Assembly (NCBI GenBank): GCA_002897695.1
Contig: BDTG01000011.1
Span: 1-11,755 of the forward strand
Direction: 5' to 3'
Length of the DNA stretch: 11,755 bases
Source: a bacterium BMS3Abin14
Lineage (GTDB): Bacteria; BMS3Abin14
A program made the translations under genes and the position numbers. The notes under the pieces are model-generated. The model was given only the letters and a program-made list of their open reading frames with translations. It was not told where the DNA came from and made no database searches. This document shows, in pieces, positions 7,278-11,755 of this stretch. Position 1 is the stretch's first letter. Each line of letters opens with the position of its first letter.

Positions 7278-8114
7278 ATGAAGGCACGGGTAACGGTTCT
7301 TTGCGAGAATTCAGCTGTACGGCCCATGGGCATCATTGGAGAGCATGGTTTTGCCGCTCTCATCGAGAGGGGGGATGAGAAGGTTCTCTTCGACACCGGT
7401 CAGGGATATGCCCTGCTTCACAATGCGAGGATCATGGGGTTTGACCTCGCAGGGGTTAATAAAGTGGCCCTGAGCCACGGTCACTACGACCACACCGGCG
7501 GTCTGGCTGAGCTTCTCAAAGCCGGAGGGGAGCGGGATATCTACGCCCATCCGGGGATATTTGTCTCAAGGTACTGGAAAGGACCGGATGGGTCCATGAA
7601 ACCCATCGGGATCCCCTTCAACCGGGATTACCTCGAGGGTTTGGGCGCCCGGTTTCGTCTGGACAAGATGGCCCAGGAGGTGGCCGACGGAATATCCACC
7701 ACGGGCGAGATCGACAGGGTGACCCCCTTCGAGGGGGGGGATACGAGCATGTTTCTTTCCCCGGAGCCGGGTGGGGAGGTGGACCCGCTTCCCGATGACC
7801 TCTCGCTGGTGGTCGAGGGAGAGGCAGGCCTTATCGTTCTGCTGGGTTGCGCCCACGCGGGTCTGGTGAACATCCTCAAACATGTCGAAAAGATGCGGCC
7901 CGGCAAAAAAATCCACGCCGTTCTCGGAGGGACGCATCTGGGATTTTCCAGCGAGGAGCAGATGGCCGGCACCATTGAAGCCATGAAGGGCATGGGGGTG
8001 GAGAAGGTAGGGGCCAGCCACTGCACCGGTCTCGCCGGATCCTGCCGTCTCCGTGAGGCGGTGGGGGACGAAAAGTTTTTCTTCGCCGGCGCCGGTGCGG
8101 TGCTGGAAGCGTAG
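7278..8114 (+). CDS. Metallo-beta-lactamase-fold hydrolase, COG1237 type
   Basis: A 278-residue MBL-fold protein, no signal peptide. The dinuclear metal site is plain: LSHGHYDHTGG (HxHxDH), then AHPGIF, GCAHAGLVNIL, a GGTHLGF motif and ASHCTG near the C-terminus supplying further His ligands. The N-terminal LCENSAVRP and KVLFDTGQGYALLHNARIMGFDL segments are typical of COG1237, whose archaeal member is linked to the 7,8-dihydropterin-6-methyl-(ribofuranosyl)aminobenzene phosphate synthase step of methanopterin synthesis. Bacterial members mostly have no demonstrated substrate, and nothing in this window points to pterin synthesis, so I leave the product general. ATG 7278 is fixed by GGAGG. Divergent from the CoA-binding gene. 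The following 101 bp (8115-8215) show no convincing terminator or promoter. Confidence 0.88.
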   Translation: MKARVTVLCENSAVRPMGIIGEHGFAALIERGDEKVLFDTGQGYALLHNARIMGFDLAGVNKVALSHGHYDHTGGLAELLKAGGERDIYAHPGIFVSRYWKGPDGSMKPIGIPFNRDYLEGLGARFRLDKMAQEVADGISTTGEIDRVTPFEGGDTSMFLSPEPGGEVDPLPDDLSLVVEGEAGLIVLLGCAHAGLVNILKHVEKMRPGKKIHAVLGGTHLGFSSEEQMAGTIEAMKGMGVEKVGASHCTGLAGSCRLREAVGDEKFFFAGAGAVLEA

Positions 8115-8215
8115 TTGTAACAATCCTGGCGGTTTAACAGTAGTGCTTGTATATCTTGGTTTTGCGTGATTAAGACCGGATATGTTTCGCTACACTTGAT
8201 GGGGGATGGTGCGCC

Positions 8216-8860
8216 ATGGATTGCCGAAAGTTCGAAAGCCGGATCGACGGATACCTTCGCAATGACCTGTCCGCCGACGATCAGCGCAAGGTGGATTCCC
8301 ACCTTGAGACCTGTGCTGTTTGCAGAGAAACCCTGGCTGAACACCAGGCGTTGGAAGCCATCCTCGACAGGGCCGCCGAGTGGACCGTTGATCCTCCGCC
8401 ATTCCTCACCCGGAAAATAGTTTCCAATCTGCCGGCCAGTGTAGCTTCCGGTTTCTGGTCGTGGAAGGTAATGCATCCCATTGTTGCGGTCGTTTCCCTG
8501 ATCCTTGCCCTGGCCATCGGTTTCGTGGGAAGGGACGTCATAGTCGGCAGACAGCCGGTCGATGTTCAACGTGCCCAGACCATCCGGATTATATTCTATT
8601 CCCCGGAGGCCTCATCGGTGGCCCTCATCGGGGATTTCAACGATTGGGGACAGAGGGACGTCACCTTGGCGCAGTCCAGCGACAGAGGTATCTGGGAGTT
8701 TTCCATGACCCTCAAGCCCGGGGTCTACCACTACAATATGCTGGTCGACGGGGAGAAATGGGTCGCCAACCCCAAATCGGCCTCCCTGGTGCCGGATGGT
8801 TTCGGCGGGTATGACTCGGTTCTGGTTGTGAGTGAAAAATGTCAGGACGACTGTACGTAA
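8216..8860 (+). CDS. Anti-sigma-like zinc-finger membrane protein with C-terminal glycogen-binding-like (CBM48/E-set) domain
   Basis: Three parts are visible in 214 residues. Residues 1-45 are a zf-HC2 anti-sigma zinc finger, C3-x25-H29-x3-C33-x2-C36. Residues about 87-105 (HPIVAVVSLILALAIGFVG) are one membrane helix. Residues about 122-207 are an immunoglobulin-like E-set/CBM48 domain of the AMPK-beta glycogen-binding type: VALIGDFNDWG, LKPGVYHYNMLVDGEKWVANP and a closing YDSVLVV strand. Compared from memory with AMPK beta, the two ligand-stacking Trp are kept (W in GDFNDW and in GEKW), while the Lys of YKFFVDG is Asn. By topology the zinc finger is cytoplasmic, placed to hold a sigma factor, and the beta domain is outside. 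No sigma factor gene lies beside it here. GGGGGA lies 9 nt before the ATG. The next gene starts 22 bp before this one ends. Domain calls are firm; the anti-sigma function is inferred. Confidence 0.85.
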   Translation: MDCRKFESRIDGYLRNDLSADDQRKVDSHLETCAVCRETLAEHQALEAILDRAAEWTVDPPPFLTRKIVSNLPASVASGFWSWKVMHPIVAVVSLILALAIGFVGRDVIVGRQPVDVQRAQTIRIIFYSPEASSVALIGDFNDWGQRDVTLAQSSDRGIWEFSMTLKPGVYHYNMLVDGEKWVANPKSASLVPDGFGGYDSVLVVSEKCQDDCT

Positions 8861-9411
8861 GGTGTGTGACGGCTCTTCTGCCGCTGGTCCTGGTTTTTTC
8901 TTTAACCATGGCCGTTTCCGCGGAAGGAAATGATCTCCGCTCGGTCCTTCAGAATGCCTATGGTGAATCCGTGTCGTCCAAAGCGGCGGCCCTCGGATTC
9001 CTGGATTTGACCGGGGAAGAGGCTGGTTACCTGAAGGAAACCGTGGAGATGTTCGCCGGTGCCGGCTTCTCCGCCCGGTTATGTCTTGACTACCTGGACC
9101 TGGCGTCCGGCCTTGTCGGCGCCGGTATCAGTCTCAAGGATATTGAGGCCAAAGTCAGGGAGGGGATCGCCAAGAACGCCGGAGGTTCCAGGGTTGTGGC
9201 TGTCATCACCGACAGGACCCAGTGGTTGAAAAAGGCAAGGGCGCTTACACTCTCGTTGGAAAATGACGGGGTTTCCTTCCTGGACAAACAGATGTCCTAC
9301 CGGGTTTTCGCGGACTATCTGGCCAGGGGAGTAAGCGGTGAGGACCTGGGTACGCACGTAATGCTTCGGGAGCTGGACGATTATCCGGCGTTGGAGAACC
9401 TTGTCAGGTAA
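8839..9411 (+). CDS. Exported protein of unknown function
   Basis: A 190-residue protein with a clear Sec signal peptide: basic start (MSGRLYVR), hydrophobic core (TALLPLVLVFSLTM) and a cleavage site after AVSA, before EGND. The mature part (about 160 residues) looks mostly helical, with LTGEEAGYLKETVEMFAGAGF and LVGAGISLKDIEAKVREGI segments, and has no Cys pair, heme motif or catalytic motif I recognise. It overlaps the preceding membrane-protein gene by 22 bp in another frame, so the two are very probably cotranscribed and coupled. The Shine-Dalgarno sequence is weak (GTGAG), as is common for coupled starts. The cytochrome gene begins 77 bp downstream. A role as a periplasmic partner of one of these neighbours is inference from position. 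Confidence 0.78.
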   Translation: MSGRLYVRCVTALLPLVLVFSLTMAVSAEGNDLRSVLQNAYGESVSSKAAALGFLDLTGEEAGYLKETVEMFAGAGFSARLCLDYLDLASGLVGAGISLKDIEAKVREGIAKNAGGSRVVAVITDRTQWLKKARALTLSLENDGVSFLDKQMSYRVFADYLARGVSGEDLGTHVMLRELDDYPALENLVR

Positions 9412-9488: not shown

Positions 9489-11755
9489 GTGAGATTGAGG
9501 ATAGGGATTTTTGTCCTTGCCTTCGTGTGGACAATATTTCCATTAGGGGCGTCCGCCCTCCCCCTGACGGGCGGGCTCCATGACCTGACGTCCGTGGCCG
9601 GCGCACCCGCCGATATCTGTCGGGAATGCCATATTCCGCACAACGCCAGGGAAAAGGCCCTTTATATCCGCGATCTGACACCTGACACCGTAAATCTGAA
9701 TGACAACTGCTATGACTGTCATGACACCAACCGGGTCGTGCTTTCGTCCCCCCCGCAGCCTCCAACCTGGGCGACTTCCGCCCCCGATGTTGGTTATCTG
9801 AAAGGCTCTCTTCACGACTGGAAGAGGACGGGGAATACACAGCCCATCGCGACCACCGGAAGCTGCTCACCATGCCACGATATACACCTTCCCGATGCCA
9901 CAACGGCTTCCTATATGGGTACCTGGTTCACGACAGCCCGTCTGTGGACCAGGGATCTGTCCCTCGACCTCGCCGAGTATTACCAGAAACGTGACCTCAG
10001 CAGGACATCAGGCACCCCGAATAATGATGGGCCGAACTACCTCGTCGGTTCTACTATCCTCTGTTACGACTGCCACGGCGGCGCCGCCCGCAGGGCTCCG
10101 ACGGGGGATCCTTTCGTGCCGGATGACTCCAATTTCTCCCCCGCTCCCCAGGACGTCGCCTTTGGAGGGGACAGGGGTGTAAAGGCTTTATCGGACGGTT
10201 CCAACGTGGGCTATTATGAGTTGCCCGACGGTTATGAACCCGCCGATGTGACACATGTGGCGCCGTCGATGTCCGCGGTCAGGGACAGCCCCGACAACCC
10301 CGACAATCTTCCTGGAGGGCATTACGTGCTGTCACGAATGGGCAACAGCGGAACCGCCCAGGATGACAACTACGAGGTGCGCGATCCTGATGGAACCCTT
10401 CTTTACAGGATCAGCATCGGCGATAAACTGCCATGTGAAATGTGTCATGACCCTCACCTGAAGGAATCGGCGACCAACACCCAGCCCGACGAGGTCTTCT
10501 TCCGACGCGATATACACACGGGAGAAAACGGGATCATCACCAGGACGGAGAGCGTTTTTAACGGTAAGCTCGAGGCCAGTTCACACACCCGGAACGGGGC
10601 GGGAGGAATTGGGGACGGACGTCTCATGTGCATCTACTGCCATGGCACCGGCGATTGGGATGGGACCCAGTTCCCCTCCACGGGTATCTCTCCCCTGGTC
10701 GTGGATTGGGGCCGGAAGCTGACGATCTTCGGGATTAGAATCCGGACCGGAACCTATGCCGACGAGTCACCGGCCTTTCCTCCGCCCAACACGGTTCCCG
10801 ACCATTTTAAAACGGCTACGAGGGCATGCGCCGACTGCCATCAGCACAACAATACCATGAGTACCAACTGCAATGCCTGTCACGGGAGCCTTGCCACAGG
10901 TCAATACTGGCCCGACGGTTCCGGCGGCAGTCCCGCCTATGTTGACGACGACGCGGGCTCTCACGACAGGCACATGCTGGCCGTGGGACAGTATCTAGGA
11001 TACGGCGATTACACGGTAACCATGTATGACAATGCCCAGCAGAAGACCATCTGCGCCTTCTGCCACCCCACTCCCGGCGGACCTGGCCACAACCTGAATA
11101 CTGCCGGGAGCCCGGCCACCAGGGTGGACGTCCTGGGCGATGGCTTCACGGCGGGTACATTCACGGTGTTTGGTGTGGGCGCTCAGACAATAAAGGCCGA
11201 CACGAACAACGCGGCCGCCTATTCTCAGGCATCCGAAACGTGCTCCAATGTGGACTGCCACTATGAGAAAACGACCCCGGCCTATGGCGGGTCCGGTTGG
11301 AACGGGGGCGACGCGGCAGGAAACGACCCCGACTGTCTTACATGTCATTACTACCGTGACACCGGCACCTATGCGGCGATCCCCTACACCATAGGTGATC
11401 TCCCCGACGCACACCAGGTTCACGTGGCCGGAATCCTGCCTCCAGACAACGCGCAGAGCCATAATTACCCGTGTTCCTACTGCCACGACGTGACGGGCTA
11501 CACCACCGCCCATACCAACGGTGAGATCGATCTTAGCGACGCGGGCAGCCCGAACCAGAGTGTGGACGGCGACCCCAATGACGAGACGATCACACCTACG
11601 AGTACCGCCGTGAAGTATGGCGCAGGATCAGCCGACGCCACATGCGCCAACTTCTATTGCCACGGGGCGGACTTCAGCGCACCCACCCAGGGAACGAACG
11701 TCTCACCCATCTGGAACAGCCAGTCCACAGCCTACTGCAGCGCCTGCCATGATGT
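9489..11755 (+). CDS. Exported multiheme cytochrome c, at least 14 heme motifs, 3'-truncated by window edge
   Basis: The frame is open from GTG 9489 to the last base (755 complete codons, no stop), so the C-terminus is missing. It starts with a signal peptide (MRLRIGIFVLAFVWTIF, cleavage near GASA-LP). Heme-binding motifs begin at 9618 CRECH, 9708 CYDCH, 9864 CSPCH, 10062 CYDCH, 10434 CEMCH, 10629 CIYCH, 10827 CADCH, 10869 CNACH, 11052 CAFCH, 11241 CSNVDCH, 11334 CLTCH, 11472 CSYCH, 11643 CANFYCH and 11736 CSACH: twelve CX2CH and two CX4CH. Each CX4CH is followed by a Trp-Asn and then a CX2CH about 30 residues on, the 'GSu_C4xC__C2xCH' unit known from Geobacter. CRECHIPH and CEMCHDPH resemble doubled-CXXCH domains. 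Likely an extracytoplasmic electron-transfer protein; partner and acceptor unknown. A purine-rich site (AGGGAGAAGGGGG) precedes the GTG. No membrane helix follows the signal peptide in the visible part. Confidence 0.92.
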   Translation, partial: MRLRIGIFVLAFVWTIFPLGASALPLTGGLHDLTSVAGAPADICRECHIPHNAREKALYIRDLTPDTVNLNDNCYDCHDTNRVVLSSPPQPPTWATSAPDVGYLKGSLHDWKRTGNTQPIATTGSCSPCHDIHLPDATTASYMGTWFTTARLWTRDLSLDLAEYYQKRDLSRTSGTPNNDGPNYLVGSTILCYDCHGGAARRAPTGDPFVPDDSNFSPAPQDVAFGGDRGVKALSDGSNVGYYELPDGYEPADVTHVAPSMSAVRDSPDNPDNLPGGHYVLSRMGNSGTAQDDNYEVRDPDGTLLYRISIGDKLPCEMCHDPHLKESATNTQPDEVFFRRDIHTGENGIITRTESVFNGKLEASSHTRNGAGGIGDGRLMCIYCHGTGDWDGTQFPSTGISPLVVDWGRKLTIFGIRIRTGTYADESPAFPPPNTVPDHFKTATRACADCHQHNNTMSTNCNACHGSLATGQYWPDGSGGSPAYVDDDAGSHDRHMLAVGQYLGYGDYTVTMYDNAQQKTICAFCHPTPGGPGHNLNTAGSPATRVDVLGDGFTAGTFTVFGVGAQTIKADTNNAAAYSQASETCSNVDCHYEKTTPAYGGSGWNGGDAAGNDPDCLTCHYYRDTGTYAAIPYTIGDLPDAHQVHVAGILPPDNAQSHNYPCSYCHDVTGYTTAHTNGEIDLSDAGSPNQSVDGDPNDETITPTSTAVKYGAGSADATCANFYCHGADFSAPTQGTNVSPIWNSQSTAYCSACHD

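Follow-up and report, generated by a model that had tools for sequence, protein, structure and literature searches.

The window analysed here, i.e. the whole stretch of 11,755 nucleotides, carries an open reading frame with an ATG at 8216 and a stop at 8860, which encodes a protein of 214 aa (Table 1). Three Pfam families match this protein above their curated cut-offs, namely zf-HC2 at residues 3-37 (E 7.7e-9), CBM_48 at residues 121-179 (E 6.9e-10) and AMPK1_CBM at residues 127-207 (E 8.9e-8), and a single membrane helix is predicted at about residues 87-109. The original prediction had described a complete zf-HC2 finger, one membrane helix and a CBM48 domain with a GDFNDW motif, and all three are borne out: the ligands C3, H29, C33 and C36 are kept in both orthologues (64% identity, across genera), and the motif lies at residues 139-144, its G, F, N and W being invariant in the family. 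The four ligands fit the Hx3Cx2C signature that is used for zinc-type class I anti-sigma domains (PMC7406223). An AlphaFold2 model, built on an alignment of 22 relatives, has a mean pLDDT of 80, and in each of its two folded domains most blocks exceed 90. Its N-terminal helices span residues 3-14, 20-32, 34-55 and 62-71, and after these come the helix at 87-109 and, at 121-205, a beta sandwich. The three-helix bundle and the sigma-contacting helix 4 of a class I anti-sigma domain (ASDI) are thus both seen in the model, and an alignment with RsiW spans residues 12-73, i.e. it reaches through helix 4. The anti-sigma reading had been said to fail if the zinc finger lacked its sigma-binding helix in structural models; all four expected N-terminal helices are in the model. 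When the whole PDB was compared with the first 75 residues, the only matches were RsiW (E 0.004), chain B of 3hug, which we take to be a Mycobacterium anti-sigma factor, and RsrA. Matches of the whole model by Foldseek and VIA-align cover the CBM part alone and are silent either way on the anti-sigma fold.

Table 1. Features of the anti-sigma cluster in the window and of the C42-type operons (positions are those of the window unless another stretch is named).
Feature	Position	Strand	Basis or remark
Candidate ECF-type promoter, TGTAAC-N18-GTAGTG	8116..8145	+	About 100 bp 5' of the ATG; weak
Membrane anti-sigma factor with CBM48 periplasmic domain, 214 aa	8216..8860	+	Pfam, orthologues, AF2 model, PDB matches
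Cytoplasmic class I anti-sigma domain, zinc motif C3/H29-x3-C33-x2-C36	8216..8431	+	zf-HC2, PDB matches, model
Single membrane helix, residues 87-109 (about)	8474..8542	+	Model helix and hydrophobic stretch in the sequence
CBM48/AMPK-beta-like domain, residues 119-206	8570..8833	+	Pfam; Z 12.2 to 1z0m over 81 residues
C-terminal tail carrying CxxxC (C209, C213)	8840..8857	+	Alignments with orthologues and other relatives
Secreted all-helical protein, 190 aa, K105xxE108G109	8839..9411	+	22-bp overlap with the anti-sigma gene; family profile
Multihaem c-type cytochrome with 12 or more CxxCH, incomplete at the end of the contig	9489..11755	+	Same place in both orthologous loci
C42-type operon, ECF without anti-sigma	L064 5799-10054; L106 5109-9345; L109 4552-8890; L104 1103-5739		

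Our family set comprised 12 genomes including this one (G000), beyond which the next relatives have no closer rank in common than the taxonomic domain. The 8216-8860 gene is present in 3 of the 12 (G000, G004 and G005), and the gene order is the same in all three loci: a gene of the metallo-beta-lactamase fold, the anti-sigma/CBM48 gene, the gene of a secreted helical protein and that of a multihaem cytochrome. Taken together, the orthologues, the conserved gene order and the confident model rule out chance. The cytochrome gene is likely co-transcribed with the anti-sigma cluster. As regards the anti-sigma role the original prediction stands, but it had overlooked the downstream secreted gene and the strict synteny with the multihaem cytochrome. 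In the window, as in both orthologues, the anti-sigma gene shares 22 bp with the secreted gene. Two reading frames are used within this overlap (8839-8860), one for the CQDDC tail and the other for the first residues of the secreted protein, and both are kept in three genera. The CxxxC of the tail is found in all three orthologues, counting that of the window, and is absent from the other relatives; since it overlaps the start of the next gene, its conservation may be due in part to the overlap and is no clear sign of function. No sigma gene adjoins the anti-sigma gene in the window, as had been noted before, nor in the orthologous loci of G004 and G005. An adjacent ECF sigma gene is usual for class I anti-sigma factors and is not strictly required; it is lacking from the window and the two orthologues and is found in the wider family described below. 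The lack of an adjacent sigma gene and the strict synteny with the secreted protein and the multihaem cytochrome would also suit a relic or repurposed envelope protein, whose sigma gene has been lost, whose zinc domain has ceased to bind any sigma factor and whose cluster serves cytochrome assembly or envelope structure. We hold this to be very unlikely, as the four zinc ligands and the entire anti-sigma domain are kept at about 64% overall identity across genera, the RsiW match still reaches through helix 4 and ECF-like promoter elements precede the gene in G004 and G005. A working anti-sigma factor in this position would act in trans, on a partner that is not adjacent.

On scanning GTDB contigs with the 8216-8860 protein as a single sequence no relatives were found, but an alignment query did find them. 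In >20 loci recovered by the alignment query, an ECF sigma gene lies immediately 5' of a gene that encodes an anti-sigma domain, a membrane helix and a CBM48 domain (ASD-TM-CBM48). These loci belong to Gemmatimonadota, Desantisbacteria, Spirochaetales, Bipolaricaulota, a Thiobacillus MAG and others, and three of their anti-sigmas (L134, L141 and L150) have the Hx3Cx2C zinc motif. It had been argued that the anti-sigma reading would not hold if homologues never co-occurred with an ECF sigma factor, and a survey of their neighbourhoods had been proposed. Homologues do co-occur with ECF sigma genes, which are found 5' in the same family and in the >20 loci elsewhere, and this objection is therefore answered in favour of the anti-sigma reading. 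By its domain, its fold and the gene neighbourhood of its family, the 8216-8860 protein is a class I anti-sigma factor. In three stretches (L135 920-1282, L137 3988-4344 and L140 3583-3945) small secreted proteins that consist of a stand-alone CBM48 domain are encoded just upstream of the sigma gene.

At many loci a third gene follows and overlaps the anti-sigma gene by 4 bp. Its product is helical and secreted and belongs to a family with invariant K, E and G (KxxEG), for which no Pfam family was matched at the curated cut-off. By hhalign against two independent sets (P about 1e-6 for each) the protein at 8839-9411 joins this family, and therefore the window carries two of the three parts. 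A profile of 17 third-component members was run against 290 genomes, with 20 matched. Restricting the count to the 14 independent loci, i.e. those that neither come from the window's family nor went into the profile, we found the sigma and the CBM48 anti-sigma genes directly upstream of the third gene in 13. A three-gene system of ECF sigma, CBM48 anti-sigma and KxxEG protein is one that recurs across many bacterial phyla, and compared with it the window has a split form, the sigma gene being missing from the cluster. The single-sequence model of the third component is of low confidence (pLDDT 56), and is taken only as 'helical'. Two third-component genes, in L223 (G003) and L233 (G248), are without an adjacent sigma gene; one of them has no CBM48 neighbour in its stretch and the other stands beside a CBM48 protein of 436 aa. 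The Gemmatimonadota loci have, after the third gene, a larger protein with a C-terminal CBM48 domain. Our literature search found no paper that links anti-sigma factors with CBM48 or AMPK1_CBM or that deals with the third component; the 2021 ECF classification paper lay outside this search, and prior mention is possible there.

G000 also has a paralogous system, C13 (L004 5483-7684), which encodes an anti-sigma-type domain with TM and CBM48, then a CBM48 lipoprotein and then a secreted helical protein. It is like the window in its ASD-TM-CBM48 protein and its secreted KxxEG protein, those of C13 being located behind an ECF sigma gene, and unlike it in the lack of zinc ligands, the extra CBM48 lipoprotein and the adjacent sigma gene. 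In six sister genomes the C13-type anti-sigma gene lies directly 3' of an ECF sigma gene. The C13 ECF sigma of G000 is 89 aa long (L004 7415-7684, minus strand), an in-frame deletion of 228 bp between two copies of GCCTACCG having taken out 76 residues, which belong to region 2 and the linker. In the sister genome G001 the gene is full-length; the deletion in G000 may be genuine or an artefact of assembly. Ahead of the C13 sigma gene there is a further gene for a relative of the third component (L004 7823-8626, L037 6770-7363), shorter than the first, and a TGTAACG-N16-TGTCC element lies upstream of it.

To return to the detached sigma factor, G000 has six Sigma70_r2 proteins. Judged by length and similarity, three of these would be primary, RpoH-like or RpoS-like sigma factors, and the other three would be ECFs (C42, C44 and C46). 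The ECFs of the C44 and C46 groups each adjoin their own zinc anti-sigma where the stretch is complete. After the C42 ECF (G000:C42:15798-16385; L064 5799-6386), no anti-sigma gene is found in any of the genomes that have it (G000, G001, G004, G005 and G008). Its operon consists of the genes of an NHL-repeat protein (a label read from the sequence and not from Pfam), a 14-haem cytochrome and the ECF; a multihaem cytochrome gene likewise closes the cluster in the window. Such an operon resembles an electron-transfer conduit with its own sigma factor, and in several cases it is divergent from thioredoxin-like (TlpA-type) genes. On pairing anti-sigmas and ECFs one to one, exactly one zinc anti-sigma (window-type) and one ECF (C42-type) are left over in G000 and in G005; the same pair is left over in G004, plus one extra, unassigned zf-HC2 protein (C9). 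The window-type gene is confined to genomes with the C42 ECF, which is present in 3 of the 3 genomes with this gene as against 2 of the 9 without it (one-sided Fisher p 0.045, with no correction for phylogeny). G011, which is 91% complete and belongs to the genus of G004, has the upstream metallo-beta-lactamase gene, and neither the anti-sigma cluster nor the C42 ECF was found in it. The two genomes that have the C42 ECF and no window-type gene differ in their operon: in G001 its cytochrome has shrunk to a remnant of 85 aa, and in G008 the operon is intact. The pattern of G008 means that the C42 sigma can exist without the window-type anti-sigma.

We infer from this distribution that the C42 ECF is the likeliest partner of the 8216-8860 anti-sigma, with about an even chance of being so. 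The expectation that the partner is encoded elsewhere, to be sought by co-occurrence, thus agrees with what is seen, there being no adjacent sigma gene and one orphan ECF in the genome. BLAST affinity to the CBM48-coupled sigmas was tried as a criterion for the partner and rejected, as it did not set the C42 sigma apart: this sigma is not clearly closer to them than the other two ECFs. The same result, with the presence of the C42 ECF in G008 without the window gene, speaks for another arrangement, in which the anti-sigma works on the C13 sigma or, by cross-talk, on the C44 or C46 sigmas, the C42 ECF being regulated otherwise. C13 is also the closest paralogous system in the genome and has the same third component. 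Yet the C13, C44 and C46 sigmas each have an adjacent anti-sigma of their own, the C13 sigma of G000 is without the 76 residues named above, and G001, where the C13 system is complete, is without a window-type gene. We regard this other arrangement as unlikely.

The upstream regions were compared for promoter elements. The candidate element of the window (Table 1) is clearer in the orthologues, where it reads TGTAACT-N16-CGTATRA. Across 521 kb of double-strand sequence, taken from five genomes, the pattern TGTAAC-N16-18-GT has 17 matches, about two thirds of which are upstream of C13, C42 or window-type operons; because the sequence searched is biased toward ECF loci, this evidence is suggestive only. 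The C13 systems have in common TGTAACG-N16-TGTC[CT]. In G004 and G005 a -35 element of the TGTAACT type precedes both the C42 and the window-type operons, and the -10 elements differ between the two (TGTCCA and CGTATRA, respectively). No clear TGTAAC promoter is seen upstream of the C42 operon in G000, where the element before the window gene is weak as well. Both orthologues have a long-armed inverted repeat at the candidate promoter (L033 about 7925-8050, L034 about 8275-8395), with sequence changes on both arms, which may be an operator or a hairpin with a regulatory role. As a hairpin it folds with a z of -8.9 in G005 and -1.4 in G004 and is absent in G000, and with this strong, weak and absent signal it was dropped as evidence.

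Coming to the outer domain, the comparison with the AMPK-beta CBM that had been suggested gives a clear match: the beta sandwich of the AF2 model superimposes on the glycogen-binding domain of AMPK beta1 (1z0m) with Z 12.2 and rmsd 1.7 over 81 residues. It belongs to CBM48 by its sequence profile and by its beta-sandwich fold alike. In AMPK beta a Lys contacts the glucan. The original prediction had noted an Asn in its place, and this is confirmed, as N174 aligns with the Lys of the solved CBM48 domain 5ot1 and no relative in the two family alignments has the Lys. Of the other contacts of the AMPK-beta type, W144 never varies, and 16 of 22 alignment rows have W182. The sensing of an envelope polysaccharide or oligosaccharide, as first proposed, is not established by these results: the fold is AMPK-beta-like, but the contact Lys is absent across the family. 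All CBM48 domains of G000 belong to the two anti-sigma systems, so that there is no branching enzyme with such a domain, and the organism's own glycogen is therefore an unlikely ligand. The ligand may be an external or envelope polysaccharide, or the secreted partner protein. That the domain is a true receptor of alpha-glucan or polysaccharide, sensing an envelope or environmental polysaccharide, would be compatible with the explanation that we favour below. The Pfam matches to CBM_48 and AMPK1_CBM, the AMPK-beta fold with its invariant W144 and the precedent of RsgI with other CBMs (PMC4711584) all point in this direction. The missing Lys and the lack of any other CBM48 protein in the genome count against it. 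Folds of the CBM48/E-set type serve also as structural or protein-interaction domains. On balance we consider a glucan receptor doubtful.

The best explanation as a whole, to which we give a probability of about 0.68, is a membrane class I anti-sigma factor with a CBM48 sensor, a secreted partner, a detached sigma factor (likeliest the C42 ECF) and a cytochrome output. By analogy with known anti-sigma factors, the zinc-binding N-terminal domain would hold the ECF sigma factor at rest in the cytoplasm, and the CBM48-fold domain would be the periplasmic sensor, receiving a signal alone or together with the secreted partner at 8839-9411. Also by analogy, the signal would most likely lead to proteolysis of the anti-sigma, by a site-1 protease and then by RseP, and so free the sigma factor; a member of the M50 (RseP-type) protease family is present in the genome. 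The sigma factor set free would be the C42 ECF, encoded 3' of the NHL-repeat protein and the 14-haem cytochrome, and as it is encoded with a cytochrome operon, the output would be cytochrome genes as its putative regulon. Going further, one may propose a conserved and as yet undescribed three-part envelope-signalling system that is split here, in which the ECF of a multihaem-cytochrome operon is the trans target of the anti-sigma and the KxxEG protein, so that a periplasmic signal controls an electron-transfer conduit, perhaps with a redox link through the conserved CxxxC tail. We put this forward tentatively, the odds being somewhat against it in this full form. If true, it would mean a widespread family of ECF signalling that senses through a fold of the glycogen-binding type and includes a third, secreted component for which Pfam has no family, and it would give a direct handle on what such CBM48-type domains sense in the envelope. 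It would also link ECF signalling to multihaem electron-transfer cytochromes in this lineage, and the locus is one where the separation of an anti-sigma gene from its sigma gene can be put to the test.

Among known systems, the AMPK beta-subunit and the CBM48 domains of branching enzymes and pullulanases have the fold described here, the GxFNxW motif and the tryptophans that correspond to W144 and W182. Unlike them, the domain of the 8216-8860 protein is tethered to the membrane and is not part of an enzyme, and the glucan-contacting Lys is absent in the aligned anti-sigma family. RsgI of Clostridium thermocellum is a known anti-sigma factor that carries a carbohydrate-binding module outside the membrane, and RsgI/SigI works alike, with a membrane anti-sigma, an outside CBM and proteolysis ending at RseP (PMC4711584, PMC12203970). 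The 8216-8860 protein is not homologous to RsgI over its whole length, and membership of the RsgI family was considered and rejected, its N-terminal domain being zf-HC2/ASDI and the neighbouring sigmas of its family being of ECF type. SigI is not an ECF sigma factor, the anti-sigma domain of RsgI is RsgI_N and the modules of RsgI belong to other CBM families. RsiW of Bacillus subtilis and RsrA of Streptomyces have the same N-terminal domain as the 8216-8860 protein, with Hx3Cx2C and the same helices (definition as in PMC7406223), and RsiW is likewise bound to the membrane with a part outside. In contrast to both, the system at 8216-8860 is without an adjacent sigma gene and possesses a CBM48 sensor and a third, secreted component.
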